Source: Lachnospiraceae bacterium (GTDB lineage: Bacteria; Bacillota; Clostridia; Lachnospirales; Lachnospiraceae). From it: a stretch of DNA of 64,000 bases. Numbering within the stretch: the stretch's first letter is position 1; every line of letters begins with the position of its first letter. Positions 6,437-49,260 of the stretch are shown here, one piece after another. Under the pieces are notes generated by a model, which worked only from the letters and a program-made list of their open reading frames with translations, was not told the DNA's origin and ran no database searches. The position numbers and the translations under genes were made by a program. Where the stretch lies: positions 62,001 to 126,000 of the forward strand of contig JAAVYA010000028.1 of assembly GCA_022790855.1 (NCBI GenBank), in the 5' to 3' direction.

Positions 6437-8026
6437 ATGAAGAAGAGAGTGAAAAAATGTGTGCAGTTGCTGCTTGCTGCGGTGTTAGTTGGTGCATCGC
6501 TGGCACCGGGGATACAAGCAGAGGCTTCGGAAGCGGAGCCGGAACCAACGCCCCAGGAGTTTGTTATTACAGATGGAGTGCTGACCGGTTACGGCGGTGC
6601 AGGCGGTGATGTTGTGATTCCGGATACGGTAACCGCAATAGCGGACAATGCATTTTCCGGTAATACAAGCATTACGAATGTTACTATTCCGGCTTCTGTG
6701 CAAAGTATTGGGAGCAACGCTTTTGCAGGATGCAGCAGCCTTACCAGCGCTTCTATTGCTTCGGCAGGGAGTATTGGATCCGGCGCATTTTATGGCTGCA
6801 CCAGCCTAGTGTCTGTATCATTGCCGGAGAACCTGGGAGAGATTTCATCCCAGCTTTTTAGTGGTTGCTCCAGTTTGGTGGATGTAGCGATTCCTTCCGC
6901 AGTGTCTGCGATTGGAAATGAAGCTTTCAGTGGCTGTGTCAGTCTGGGAGGCGTTTCAATTCCTTCTAGCTGTGGAAGCATTGGGGCTAGCGCTTTTAAT
7001 GGATGCAGCAGCTTTGGCAGTATATCCATTCCTTCCAGTGTATCAAGTATAGGAGAAGGAGCTTTTGCAGACTGCAGCGGTCTTGGTTCTGTAGAATTAA
7101 ATGCGAGCATTTCCAGTTTACCGGATAATATATTTTATGGCTGTGCCAGTTTGGGAAGTATTGATTTGCCGTCTGGCATCGGCAGTATTGGAAGCAATGC
7201 CTTTGGCGGTTGTGCTTCATTAGGAAGTATTTCTATTCCGGCAAGCGTATCTTCTATTGATTTGGGAGCTTTTTCCGGATGTATTGGCCTATCCTCCATA
7301 TCTATAGCCAGCGGAGGCAGTACTTATGCGAGTTCAGACGGATGCATTTATGATGCGGCTTTGACGACATTAATTTATTGCCCGCCAGGAAAAGGGTCTA
7401 TTACCCTTGCCAGCACAACGACAAGCATAGGCGCGGGAGCATTTAGCAGCAATAGCATAATAGGAGATTTGACTATACCAAGTGGTGTTACTACAATTGA
7501 AGCAGGTGCTTTTTCTGGAAGTGGAATCGCTACAGTGACAATTCCGGAAAGCGTTACTTCTATTGGTTCTCAGTCTGGATGGACGCCGGATGCGATTTTT
7601 GGCCTTACAGGTTCTCAGGCTCAAGTATTTGCAGATGAGAATGGATATGTATTCGAGAGTACTGGAACAGCCCAGAATCCGGTTACACCTATTGATCCGA
7701 CAGATCCAACGGATCCAACGGATCCGGAGGACCCAACAGATCCGGAGAACCCAACAGATCCGAAGAACCCAACGGATCCGGAACAGCCAAATAACCCAGA
7801 GAATCCAACGAATCCGACAAATCCAACGGATTCCGGAAATAACAATAATGGTACAACGGCGACAAGAAGTACCAGTACCAGATCTACTACCGGAAGCACT
7901 GCGCGAGTAAAGGATTTAACACCAAAGACAGGAGATGGAATTGATGCAAAATATTTCTTATGTGGCGGTGTATTATTGGTAGGAGTATATCTGGTAATTT
8001 ATAAAAAGAAAGTAAAAGCAAAATAA
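6437..8026 (+). CDS. BspA-type leucine-rich-repeat surface protein with PT/D-rich linker and C-terminal TPKTG cell-wall sorting signal
   Basis: Signal peptide; repeats 'IG..AF.GC.SL..I.IPssV.sI'; PTDPTDPEDPTDP linker; C-term LTPKTGDG + TM + KKKVKAK; RBS ggagg. Confidence 0.9.
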   Translation: MKKRVKKCVQLLLAAVLVGASLAPGIQAEASEAEPEPTPQEFVITDGVLTGYGGAGGDVVIPDTVTAIADNAFSGNTSITNVTIPASVQSIGSNAFAGCSSLTSASIASAGSIGSGAFYGCTSLVSVSLPENLGEISSQLFSGCSSLVDVAIPSAVSAIGNEAFSGCVSLGGVSIPSSCGSIGASAFNGCSSFGSISIPSSVSSIGEGAFADCSGLGSVELNASISSLPDNIFYGCASLGSIDLPSGIGSIGSNAFGGCASLGSISIPASVSSIDLGAFSGCIGLSSISIASGGSTYASSDGCIYDAALTTLIYCPPGKGSITLASTTTSIGAGAFSSNSIIGDLTIPSGVTTIEAGAFSGSGIATVTIPESVTSIGSQSGWTPDAIFGLTGSQAQVFADENGYVFESTGTAQNPVTPIDPTDPTDPTDPEDPTDPENPTDPKNPTDPEQPNNPENPTNPTNPTDSGNNNNGTTATRSTSTRSTTGSTARVKDLTPKTGDGIDAKYFLCGGVLLVGVYLVIYKKKVKAK

Positions 8027-33306: not shown

Positions 33307-33888
33307 TTATTCTTCCATTTCTTCAATATCTACGTCTTCTGCTGTTTCTTCAGAGGATGGGAATTGGGCTTCCTCTTCATCTTCCGGAAGCCATGCTTTC
33401 CCGAATTTTACATCCTTGAACAAGGCAGACAATCCGGTAATTTGTTTCAGACGCAGAATCTCGTCCCGGTCCATTCCAAGATGCTTAGAAATCCAGGCGT
33501 CAGAGCGGCCCATTTCGTGAAGCTCTTTTATAATATTACTCATCAGGTCTACATTATGGGAGCCTCTGGCGCGGTTATGCCGAATTGTACTGGCCATTCG
33601 GTGCTCCAGCGGACGGTCAATAATAGCCACCGGAAGCAAACCGCCTTCCCGCTCATAGATATCGGGGTATTCCAGCATAACACGGTAACGGTGGAACCCG
33701 TCCACTAAGACATAAGTATCGGTGGATTTTACATAGTAACAGACTACAGGCATGGTATATCCGTCTTCTTTTATACTGTCATACAGGAGCTTGAACTCCG
33801 GCGGGGCAACGGAGTTGGGATTGTATGTGTTTGGCTCTATTTTTTCAATGGGAACGGCAATTACATTGTATACGGGACTTTTGGACAT
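33307..33888 (-). CDS. IbrB-like ParB/Srx-fold protein
   Basis: ParB-like 'IEPNTYNPNSVAPPEFKLLYDSIKEDGYTMPVVCYY...LVDGFHRYRV'; 2-nt gap from IbrA-like gene. Confidence 0.82.
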   Translation of the reverse strand: MSKSPVYNVIAVPIEKIEPNTYNPNSVAPPEFKLLYDSIKEDGYTMPVVCYYVKSTDTYVLVDGFHRYRVMLEYPDIYEREGGLLPVAIIDRPLEHRMASTIRHNRARGSHNVDLMSNIIKELHEMGRSDAWISKHLGMDRDEILRLKQITGLSALFKDVKFGKAWLPEDEEEAQFPSSEETAEDVDIEEMEE

Positions 33889-33890
33889 TA

Positions 33891-35210
33891 TTATGCATCT
33901 CCTATGGCGCGGTATTTCTGTTTCAGGATATCAATATGGTATTGCTGTTGTCTGGTCAGGCCGAAGCCCAGGAACCGGCAGATATGATCGTTTTTTAGTA
34001 TGCAATAGCACATGCGTTTCCAGCTTGGGATGTCCTTGCTGCTTTTGATATCGTCGGTATGGTCCGGCAGCTTTCCGATAAAGACGACGCGGGAATTCTT
34101 CATAAGGGTGTAGTTGGAAATTCCGTTGCGCCGAATATTGTATCCATGTTCTAAAAGCTCTTCTATGGTTTTCTCTTCCAGCCCGCCTCCGGTTTTATGC
34201 CAGAATTCGATGGAAGTGTTAAATTTTTTGATATAGTTATTTCTTAACCTTGCCGGAAGCGTATCCAGTAAAAATTTTGTATAGGATTTCCAGGTATGCC
34301 CTTCGGGCAGCGTCAGGTTTCGGTAGCCCATAGCCTTTGTTTTTCCGTAAATACATGCAAAATTAGCGCCTCGGACACGTCCCACCAGTTTGGTCCATAT
34401 GGCTGGGTCAATGACACGGTATAGGTTTAGGCTGTCCTTGGCATAGTCGTTAAAAGGCGAAGCTACCCGCATCTGATCTGGTTTTAATCCCGCCATATAG
34501 TAAAGATCGTACAGACGGTTATAGTCGTAATTGAACATGTAATTGGCGTGCCATACGTCGTTTAAAGACCAGTCATACAAAGGAGAAGCACACCAGACAT
34601 CCTTAAATTGCTTGCTGATCCAGCAGGTTCCTTCATAACCGTATTTTCGGTTCATAATGCCGCTGTATCGTTGGAGAGATTCATCCGCCCGTATTCCCAG
34701 CAAACAAGCGGTTTTTCCGCGATGATGGGACATACGATACCAGCGGCCGAACTGCTTTGCCAGATCCTCCTGATGCATACGGTAGCGGTAGGTGGAGATG
34801 GGATTGTTTTTCAGATGAATCACGTAGGGGTGCTTGGGCATAGGACGAACCCAGGCGTCTTCCTTCCGGTCATCCCAGGGATACCAGAACATTTCATAGC
34901 TGCTTAAGGCGGTTCGGGTGGCCATAGGCAGACATACCCAGTAGGGTTCTACCTCATTGCAGATTCTCTGGAAGGTCCGTTCCACATACTCTGTAGTTAC
35001 GGTGTATTGTGCTTCAAAATCCTGGTGGAAAACACCGATTTTTTTATTGGGATAATATTTCTTCTGATAGTCAAGCGTAAGGTTTAGCAGCAGGCCGCTG
35101 TCTTTTCCGCCGGAAAAAGAGACATATATATTATCAAATTCTTCAAATAAAAAATGAAGCCGCTCCTGCAATGCATCATAAACATTCTGTTCCGTAAATT
35201 TTCGCTTCAT
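33891..35210 (-). CDS. IbrA-like phosphoadenosine-phosphosulfate reductase family protein (DUF3440 C-terminus)
   Basis: PP-loop 'VSFSGGKDSGLLLNL'; 'MKRKFTEQNVYDALQERLHFLFEEFDNIYVSFSGGKDSG' N-term; start at 35210 with RBS gaggtgat. Confidence 0.85.
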   Translation of the reverse strand: MKRKFTEQNVYDALQERLHFLFEEFDNIYVSFSGGKDSGLLLNLTLDYQKKYYPNKKIGVFHQDFEAQYTVTTEYVERTFQRICNEVEPYWVCLPMATRTALSSYEMFWYPWDDRKEDAWVRPMPKHPYVIHLKNNPISTYRYRMHQEDLAKQFGRWYRMSHHRGKTACLLGIRADESLQRYSGIMNRKYGYEGTCWISKQFKDVWCASPLYDWSLNDVWHANYMFNYDYNRLYDLYYMAGLKPDQMRVASPFNDYAKDSLNLYRVIDPAIWTKLVGRVRGANFACIYGKTKAMGYRNLTLPEGHTWKSYTKFLLDTLPARLRNNYIKKFNTSIEFWHKTGGGLEEKTIEELLEHGYNIRRNGISNYTLMKNSRVVFIGKLPDHTDDIKSSKDIPSWKRMCYCILKNDHICRFLGFGLTRQQQYHIDILKQKYRAIGDA

Positions 35211-35363
35211 TGCAATCACCTCTCCGTTCACACAATTGGAAAATATTTCCATATTTTACCACAAATATCGACAAAAAACAAGAATGGCATTTTTACAGAG
35301 CACTGTCACCGAGGAGGGAGGCGGGGCATATATTATATTGATGTCAGAATTGGGAGAATATCA

Positions 35364-35955: not shown

Positions 35956-36027
35956 GATACATGTATCGTTGAAAACCAATATATTTTTGCCCTGTTCATT
36001 TTTTGGAACTCCTGCTATAATGTAGCA

Positions 36028-36175
36028 GTAGTAACAGTTCATCCCAGGACTTTGCATTTACTGCAAAGTCCGTATGATAAAGCTGATATGATGGGAATCC
36101 GGCTCTTTGCCGCAGGCAAACTTCTAAATGAGCCGGATTCTGTAACAGGGAAGCCAAAGGCTGAACTGTTACTAC
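36028..36175 (+). repeat. 148-nt nested palindromic (cloverleaf-like) element; candidate dispersed repeat / structured 5'UTR
   Basis: 14-bp perfect outer IR gtagtaacagttca/tgaactgttactac; hairpin ggactttgca-tttac-tgcaaagtcc; nested aatccggctc[tttgcc-gca-ggcaaa]gagccggatt; small gcc-aaa-ggc hairpin. Confidence 0.8.
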
Positions 36176-36213
36176 CAGTAAGCAAAACAGGATTGGCAAG
36201 GAGTTTCTATTTT

Positions 36214-37368
36214 ATGACAGATTTAAAAGAACTATTGAATAGATATATGGACCAGGATTTTCAGTCCGCTGTTCTAAGCAGCCCCCGGAATGCCAGGAAC
36301 GGACATAAGATTCAGCTCCGTCCGGTAAAAATAAAGCAGGAAGTTGTATATCAGGCGACGGAGTACATTGGGACAAAGGTGTATCATCATAATTTACCCA
36401 AGCCGCTGGCTGTGGAAAGGACTGCGGAATGGATGGAGCAGTATCGTCAGCTCCAATTGTCCGCCGCATGGGGACAAGCACATGTGTGGGTCAGCAAAAA
36501 GGGAAAGATTTCTCTGAAGGAAAAAGCCGGATGTGGTTGTGTAAAACAGCAGGATTTATCCCATAATAGAAAGAAGCAGTATATTTTAGACCCGGAGCAA
36601 AGCGTGGGATTTTTGGAAGATTTGGGTGTCCAGACCAGGGAAGGAAAAATTGTAAAAGCGCGTTATGACAAGTTCCGGCAAATCAACCGGTTCCTGGAAT
36701 TTATAGAGGATATATTGCCTCAGCTTCCCAGGGACAGGGAGATTACGATCTTGGATTTTGGCTGCGGAAAATCTTATTTGACATTTGCGATGTATCATTA
36801 TATGAAAGAATTAAAAGGTCTTGATGTGAAGATCATCGGGCTGGATTTAAAGGAAGATGTGATTGAAAACTGCAATAAATTAGCGGAAAAATACGGATAT
36901 AAGGGATTACATTTTTATGTAGGAGACATTGCCCGCTATCATGGCGCCGATCAGGTGGATATGGTGGTTACGCTTCATGCCTGCGATACGGCTACGGATT
37001 ATGCCCTGGATAAAGCAATCCGCTGGGGTGCAAAAGTGATTTTATCCGTGCCGTGCTGCCAACATGAATTGAACGGGCAGATACAAAATGATATTCTGGA
37101 GCCGGTGCTGCGGTATGGACTATTGAAAGAACGGATGGCCGCCCTGTTTACGGATGGTTTGCGGGCCCAGATTTTGGAGAGCATGGGATATGACGTCCAG
37201 ATATTGGAGTTTATCGATATGGAGCATACACCGAAAAATATTTTGATCCGGGCCGTAAAGAGACAAGGGAAAGAAAGACGGGAAAATTATCGGCAGTTGA
37301 TGGACTTTCTGCAGGTGAATCCCACACTTGCCAGGCTGCAGGAGGAAAGGACGGGGCAAAATGGGTAA
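36214..37368 (+). CDS. Class I SAM-dependent methyltransferase
   Basis: ATG 36214 with caaggag RBS; 'ITILDFGCGKSYLTFAMYHYM', 'VVTLHACDTATDYAL', 'SVPCCQHEL'. Confidence 0.85.
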   Translation: MTDLKELLNRYMDQDFQSAVLSSPRNARNGHKIQLRPVKIKQEVVYQATEYIGTKVYHHNLPKPLAVERTAEWMEQYRQLQLSAAWGQAHVWVSKKGKISLKEKAGCGCVKQQDLSHNRKKQYILDPEQSVGFLEDLGVQTREGKIVKARYDKFRQINRFLEFIEDILPQLPRDREITILDFGCGKSYLTFAMYHYMKELKGLDVKIIGLDLKEDVIENCNKLAEKYGYKGLHFYVGDIARYHGADQVDMVVTLHACDTATDYALDKAIRWGAKVILSVPCCQHELNGQIQNDILEPVLRYGLLKERMAALFTDGLRAQILESMGYDVQILEFIDMEHTPKNILIRAVKRQGKERRENYRQLMDFLQVNPTLARLQEERTGQNG

Positions 37369-49165: not shown

Positions 49166-49260
49166 GCATTGTGTCATGCTGTATGGGCAAAGCAAGGGCA
49201 GCAAAGTACCATGCGTCGGCGGTCATGGCATTGTGTCATGCTGTATGGGCAAAGCAAGGG
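49166..49260. repeat. 33-bp perfect direct repeat (49166-49198 and 49228-49260)
   Basis: gcattgtgtcatgctgtatgggcaaagcaaggg x2, 62-bp period. Confidence 0.95.

Follow-up and report, generated by a model that had tools for sequence, protein, structure and literature searches.

A preliminary description of a 64,000-nt stretch of Lachnospiraceae DNA (hereafter the window) singled out a 148-nt nested palindrome upstream of a methyltransferase gene, and the question this locus raises is whether such a palindrome is a structured RNA or a dispersed mobile element. The terminal inverted repeat, 10-bp hairpin, two-tier hairpin and gcc-aaa-ggc hairpin named there were all found within the 148 nt (36028-36175) when the sequence was checked, the last of them inside the terminal module, with GTAGTAACAGTTCA (36028-36041) and TGAACTGTTACTAC (36162-36175) pairing without a mismatch. 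The palindromic structure was thus recovered, but its limits were not: the complete mobile unit is 142 bp long (36031-36172), with GTAACAG...CTGTTAC ends, and the outermost GTA/TAC pair belongs to an 8-bp target duplication (TAGCAGTA/TACCAGTA) rather than to the element (Table 1). The element has a 14-bp terminal inverted repeat with one mismatch and no element-specific ORF. We propose, with a probability of roughly 85%, that it is a non-autonomous MITE that is moved by an IS66-type transposase and sometimes collapses to solo remnants.

Table 1. Features of the palindromic element and its immediate surroundings, in window positions
Feature	Position	Strand	Evidence
TATAAT with upstream TG (TGCTATAAT), just 5' of the insertion; possible promoter	36016..36021	+	Sequence
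Left target duplication copy (8 bp), TAGCAGTA	36023..36030	.	7/8 identical to right flank (null 0.7% for ≥7/8)
Whole non-autonomous element, 142 bp, B-C-A orientation, ends GTAACAGTTCATCC...GGCTGAACTGTTAC	36031..36172	+	8 host-genome copies (87-100% identity); limits fixed by 8-bp target duplications of independent copies
Left terminal inverted repeat GTAACAGTTCATCC, consensus GTAACAGTTCAGCC	36031..36044	+	End-pattern search of the host genome (see text); 14-mer also ends IS66-type elements
Hairpin B, GGACTTTGCA/TGCAAAGTCC	36047..36071	+	5/9 counted pairs changed on both sides in 42 copies; identical core in G008 sister family
Hairpin C (two-tier), GAATCCGGCTC...GAGCCGGATTC, with inner TTTGCC-GGCAAA hairpin	36095..36140	+	Arm covariation between subfamilies
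Module A, 31 bp, GTAACAGGGAAGCCAAAGGCTGAACTGTTAC	36142..36172	+	Elsewhere in the genome also solo, with own 8-bp target duplications
Right terminal inverted repeat, reverse complement = GTAACAGTTCAGCC	36159..36172	-	End-pattern search and IS66-type element ends
Right target duplication copy (8 bp), TACCAGTA	36173..36180	.	Flank comparison with left copy
Methyltransferase gene (PF13679), host gene, 3' of the element	36214..37368	+	Domain search

Sequence searches of the host genome, a 3.2-Mb draft (92% complete), found 31 matching places, eight of them full length, in both orientations and with differing surroundings; the earlier statement that only one full copy is visible holds for the window, but the genome has eight. 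The GTAACAGTTCAGCC end was found within two mismatches at 85 places, compared with nine for the reversed control pattern. Besides the composite, the host genome contains solo module A (29-32 bp) and solo module B (about 59-61 bp), each with GTAACAG...CTGTTAC as its limits, and most of these short forms carry 8-bp duplications. Among 50 candidate end pairs picked blind to their flanks, 7-8 of the eight flanking bases were identical in 21, against 0.7% when the left flank of one candidate was paired with the right flank of another. The same 8-bp rule holds for a 29-bp solo subtype with GTAACAGTTCAGAC ends, whose 133-bp composite (L114) has AAAAGCCT on both sides; each solo type resembles module A of its own composite subfamily. 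Within the window composite, module A by itself lacks a flanking duplication (0/8), indicating that the 142-bp unit inserted as a whole. Hence the element is short and noncoding, with terminal inverted repeats, target duplications at independent insertions and multiple dispersed copies, as expected of a MITE, and the 142-bp form has presumably transposed.

Related sequences are spread well beyond this host. A strict pattern for module A was matched in 11 of 397 sampled genomes of the same family, and at least 110 stretches matched in a set of one genome per species (84,980 species). Among the matches listed were Lachnospiraceae, Roseburia, Eubacterium, Hominisplanchenecus, Parablautia and unclassified Clostridia or bacteria, several of those listed being recognisably mouse-gut isolates or MAGs. 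The 142-bp unit with 7-8/8 duplications also occurs in many other Lachnospiraceae. Duplication-verified elements pooled across genomes (107, chiefly 140-147 bp or 29-32 bp) were picked for 7-8/8 matches, so that they are no second test of the duplication. Only 15 of 97 usable cases fell within a crudely called ORF, compared with 82 expected, which bears out the preliminary impression that such elements recur in Lachnospiraceae intergenic regions. No copy was found in the viral contigs and the phage and plasmid collections searched, and no prior description of a GTAACAG-ended MITE family was found in the open-access literature. One 304-bp copy (L190:264-567) has a second palindromic insertion (TAGTGTGC...GCACACTA) with TA flanks beside its left end, which suggests a nested Tc/mariner-type MITE.

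Full copies share an invariant layout of hairpin B, hairpin C and the 31-bp module A, and the arms of B and C show paired changes. Across 42 composites, 98% of cells in counted pairs were standard pairs, and seven pairs had changes in both partners, a count that none of 500 shuffles reached. Hairpin C arms co-vary by subfamily (GAATCCGGCT/AGCCGGATTC, GAATCTGCCC/GGGCAGATTC, GAATCCAGCC/GGCTGGATTC and GAATCCGCCC/GGGCGGATTC), as paired by a separate script that chooses the best-pairing arms and hence favours pairing, used because automatic alignment misplaces hairpin C between subfamilies. The palindromes are therefore kept. This fits conserved palindromic arms in either an RNA or a DNA role, which covariation does not separate, since the copies are related to one another and the same pattern can result from template-switch correction of palindromes. 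With compensatory changes in both hairpins, many copies, several size classes and target duplications, the preliminary proposal of a dispersed non-autonomous mobile element was upheld, and its opposite (a single-copy sequence without homologs or compensatory changes) was contradicted on every count. One insertion found in two genomes (L267:451-591 and L259:2081-2250) differs by an 18-bp insertion, AAAAATTGAGCTTTGCTC, in hairpin C, i.e., the tip of this hairpin appears to grow or shrink after insertion.

The GTAACAGTTCAGCC ends also cap elements that carry a divergent transposase of IS66 type or remnants of one. Two examples with internal deletions and transposase remnants, found by searching with GTTACTG-/GTTACAA-type cousin proteins, have GTAACAGTTCAGCC at both ends and perfect 8-bp duplications: L354 (1263 bp, AAGTTTTT) and L374 (936 bp, AATTTTTT; one mismatch in the right end). 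In a third, L371, the transposase is frameshifted, one GTAACAGTTCAGCC end is present and the 5' end is lost; homologues of its protein in G034, G259 and G394 adjoin an exact GTAACAGTTCAGCC on the 5' side (L379, L383) or on the 3' side (L378, L392, both interrupted by contig ends). ORFs beside this IS (L371:2000-3248) look like another IS, IS30-like by eye. The genomes searched yielded no intact element with a full-length transposase between two GTAACAGTTCAGCC ends. Searches of the host draft genome detected no homologue of the partner transposase, and end pairs 1-4 kb apart there (≤2 mismatches) gave no convincing autonomous copy. Hence the host-genome copies could be relics, or their carrier could have been an IS that was lost or unassembled, and the copies are probably now immobile. 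The ends that a MITE shares with an autonomous element were thus found on IS66-type elements, none intact and none in the host draft genome. The 14-mer is common to the IS ends and module A, mostly followed by a short complementary GGCT, and the shared sequence amounts to only about 14-25 bp, at the ends. An IS66-type enzyme probably carries the 142-bp element.

Assignment of the partner to the IS66 group draws on its domain and on its relatives. PF03050 matched the two halves of the GTAACAG-type transposase weakly (3e-5 and 1.4e-6; 24 and 28 bits against a cut-off of 23.1) and matched the GTTACTG-/GTTACAA-type cousins at E values of 1e-14 to 1e-22, the cousins scoring below the NCBIfam IS66 cut-off (138-159 versus 180 bits). 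The divergent single-ORF IS66-type group (PF03050; 557-572 aa) has GTTACTGTTCAG and GTTACAATTCACGG ends, and L345, with GTTACAATTCACGG ends, is flanked by a perfect 8-bp duplication, AACGGTTC. Intact IS66-type elements with GTTACTGTTC ends were L382 (2358 bp, perfect 8-bp duplication GCCGGAAT) and L346 (2254 bp, only one large ORF). Sister MITEs of 129-131 bp in G008 (loci L033-L046) also have GTTACTGTTC ends; 8 of 13 loci show 7-8/8 duplications, and the hairpin B core (GGACTTTGCATTTACTGCAAAGTCC) is identical to that of the present element. Hence each of the two end types, GTAACAGTTCAGCC and GTTACTGTTC, is found on both MITEs and IS66-type elements. Single-ORF members have been described within the IS66 group. 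IS66 inverted repeats start with GTAAGCG and the direct repeats are 8 bp (PMC11946415). Our element resembles this family and its derived MITEs in its 8-bp duplications, its GTAA-starting ends and the PF03050 transposase on same-ended elements, but it has GTAACAG ends and lacks coding sequence, and its partner is single-ORF. The partner thus has the DDE_Tnp_IS66 domain and 8-bp duplication but neither GTAAGCG ends nor TnpA/TnpB accessory ORFs and, given GTAACAG ends (GTTACTG or GTTACAA in its cousins), we file it as IS66-type rather than classic IS66.

In the proposed mechanism, an IS66-type transposase would recognise the GTAACAGTTCAGCC end and place the unit in AT-leaning intergenic DNA, leaving an 8-bp duplication. 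The interior of the inserted palindromic unit could then be deleted between inner and outer CTGTTAC (or GTAACAG) repeats, which would leave a 29-32-bp solo A or an about 59-bp solo B with the original duplication retained. Two species differ at one orthologous site: Mgla_MAG_28-bin_2 (L255) carries a 142-bp element there, whereas in Mgla_MAG_2-bin_7 (L173) the site is occupied by a 31-bp solo. Module A is identical in the two, as is the flanking duplication, which indicates that internal deletion is the source of at least some solos. The simplest account of the L173 solo would be deletion between the inner and outer CTGTTAC, for which slippage is a likely route, and solo B would fit a deletion that runs from the terminal GTAACAG to an internal GTATCAG. 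The loci compared included no clean empty site, and the flanks of L100 and L266 were too diverged to serve as one.

A different account of the kept palindromes is that the element is a structured noncoding RNA or cis-regulatory leader, its dispersal being secondary, which we consider very improbable. The 148-nt stretch does fold strongly as RNA (-67.1 kcal/mol, z = -8.2; 0 of 200 shuffles equally stable), hairpins B and C co-vary, and the window copy sits between a TATAAT and a gene start. However, the two strands fold about equally well (opposite strand, z = -9.5), copies lie in unrelated tandem, divergent and convergent gene contexts, palindrome correction or relatedness of the copies could also explain the covariation, and the duplications and IS-type ends account for dispersal without an RNA function. 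Rfam gave no match at the gathering threshold, nor did any family match at the other threshold used (best E 0.025, scores far below the cut-off), which leaves the suggestion of a new ncRNA unsupported. The related suggestion that the palindrome could form the whole 5'UTR of the methyltransferase mRNA is not general: the insertion site varies from copy to copy, which confines the idea to the window copy, with its TATAAT on the 5' side and a gene on the 3' side. No acceptable -35 was found at standard spacing from this TATAAT; if the promoter is used, the element could form the start of the 5'UTR, and an effect on the PF13679 methyltransferase gene is possible.

Other ways of moving the element were also considered, one of them a variant of the MITE explanation that does not exclude it: the 29-32-bp solos would transpose by themselves and the composite would be assembled from modules. 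Solos do have their own 8-bp duplications and right-type ends, and 33 of the 107 duplication-verified elements are exact 31-bp solos. The L255/L173 pair shows, by contrast, that a solo sharing module A and duplication with a composite can be a deletion remnant, and the likeness of each solo type to its own composite subfamily also speaks against independent movement. We therefore regard it as unlikely, if worth keeping in view, that the IS66-type transposase moves 29-31-bp units barely longer than two 14-bp ends; if it did, these would be among the smallest DNA transposons. Far less probable is a partner from another transposase family. IS256, IS1595 and IS4/IS5-type families can make duplications of about 8 bp, so the length is about right, but IS256-type and DDE_Tnp_1 transposases had no matching ends at the best 30 loci per search in the genomes tested, no IS1595 transposase was present in those genomes, and the exact 14-mer sits on IS66-type elements. 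Classic IS66 elements of the same genomes were likewise rejected as partners: their 8-bp duplications have the right length, but their ends (GTAAGCG or GTAACCG) differ. Least credible of all is a repeat of REP/BIME type mobilised by a RAYT (Y1 tyrosine transposase). The small palindromes in solo and composite forms do resemble REP and BIME, and the window copy has GTAG at 36028-36031; this GTAG derives from the target duplication, however, and the bases beside the ends vary among copies. Single-strand HUH transposition is not known to make target duplications, and the 8-bp duplications at most copies contradict this route.

The nearest published analogue in layout is BOX of Streptococcus pneumoniae, a modular intergenic repeat with strong structure, terminal inverted repeats, target duplications, size classes and lone modules, for which movement via a resident IS was proposed (PMC3049150). 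Module, end and host family differ, and the present element has a fixed B-C-A order without tandem boxB-like arrays, with a 31-bp solo traced at one site to deletion. REP, REPIN and BIME sequences (PMC3733652, PMC3116915) are similarly 20-40-bp palindromes found alone and in composites; unlike these, the element described here forms target duplications, is bounded by terminal inverted repeats and has no conserved GTAG/CGTC tag. The short units described here, at least some of them remnants of a larger MITE, differ in host and sequence from the very small mobile repeats of cyanobacteria, reportedly very short units that are dispersed and bear signs of mobility (Elhai, in 2008; cited in PMC3733652). 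A MITE carried by an IS66-type enzyme would account for an intergenic palindrome that recurs in gut Lachnospiraceae and might pass for an ncRNA, and would tie this palindrome family to a specific transposase group. Its modular layout, co-varying arms and collapse at one site could offer a tractable case of MITEs turning into REP-like scars, with the caution that a target duplication around a 31-bp palindrome does not by itself mark an independent insertion.

Elsewhere in the window, at 33307-35252 on the minus strand, a DUF3440/PAPS-reductase-like gene (PF11922, PF01507) is followed by one that matches ParB_N below threshold. Two other repeats were noted, a tandem 18-nt repeat of coding type (CCAACGGATCCG...; 7679-7840) and a perfect 33-nt direct repeat (49166-49198 and 49228-49260, 62 nt apart).
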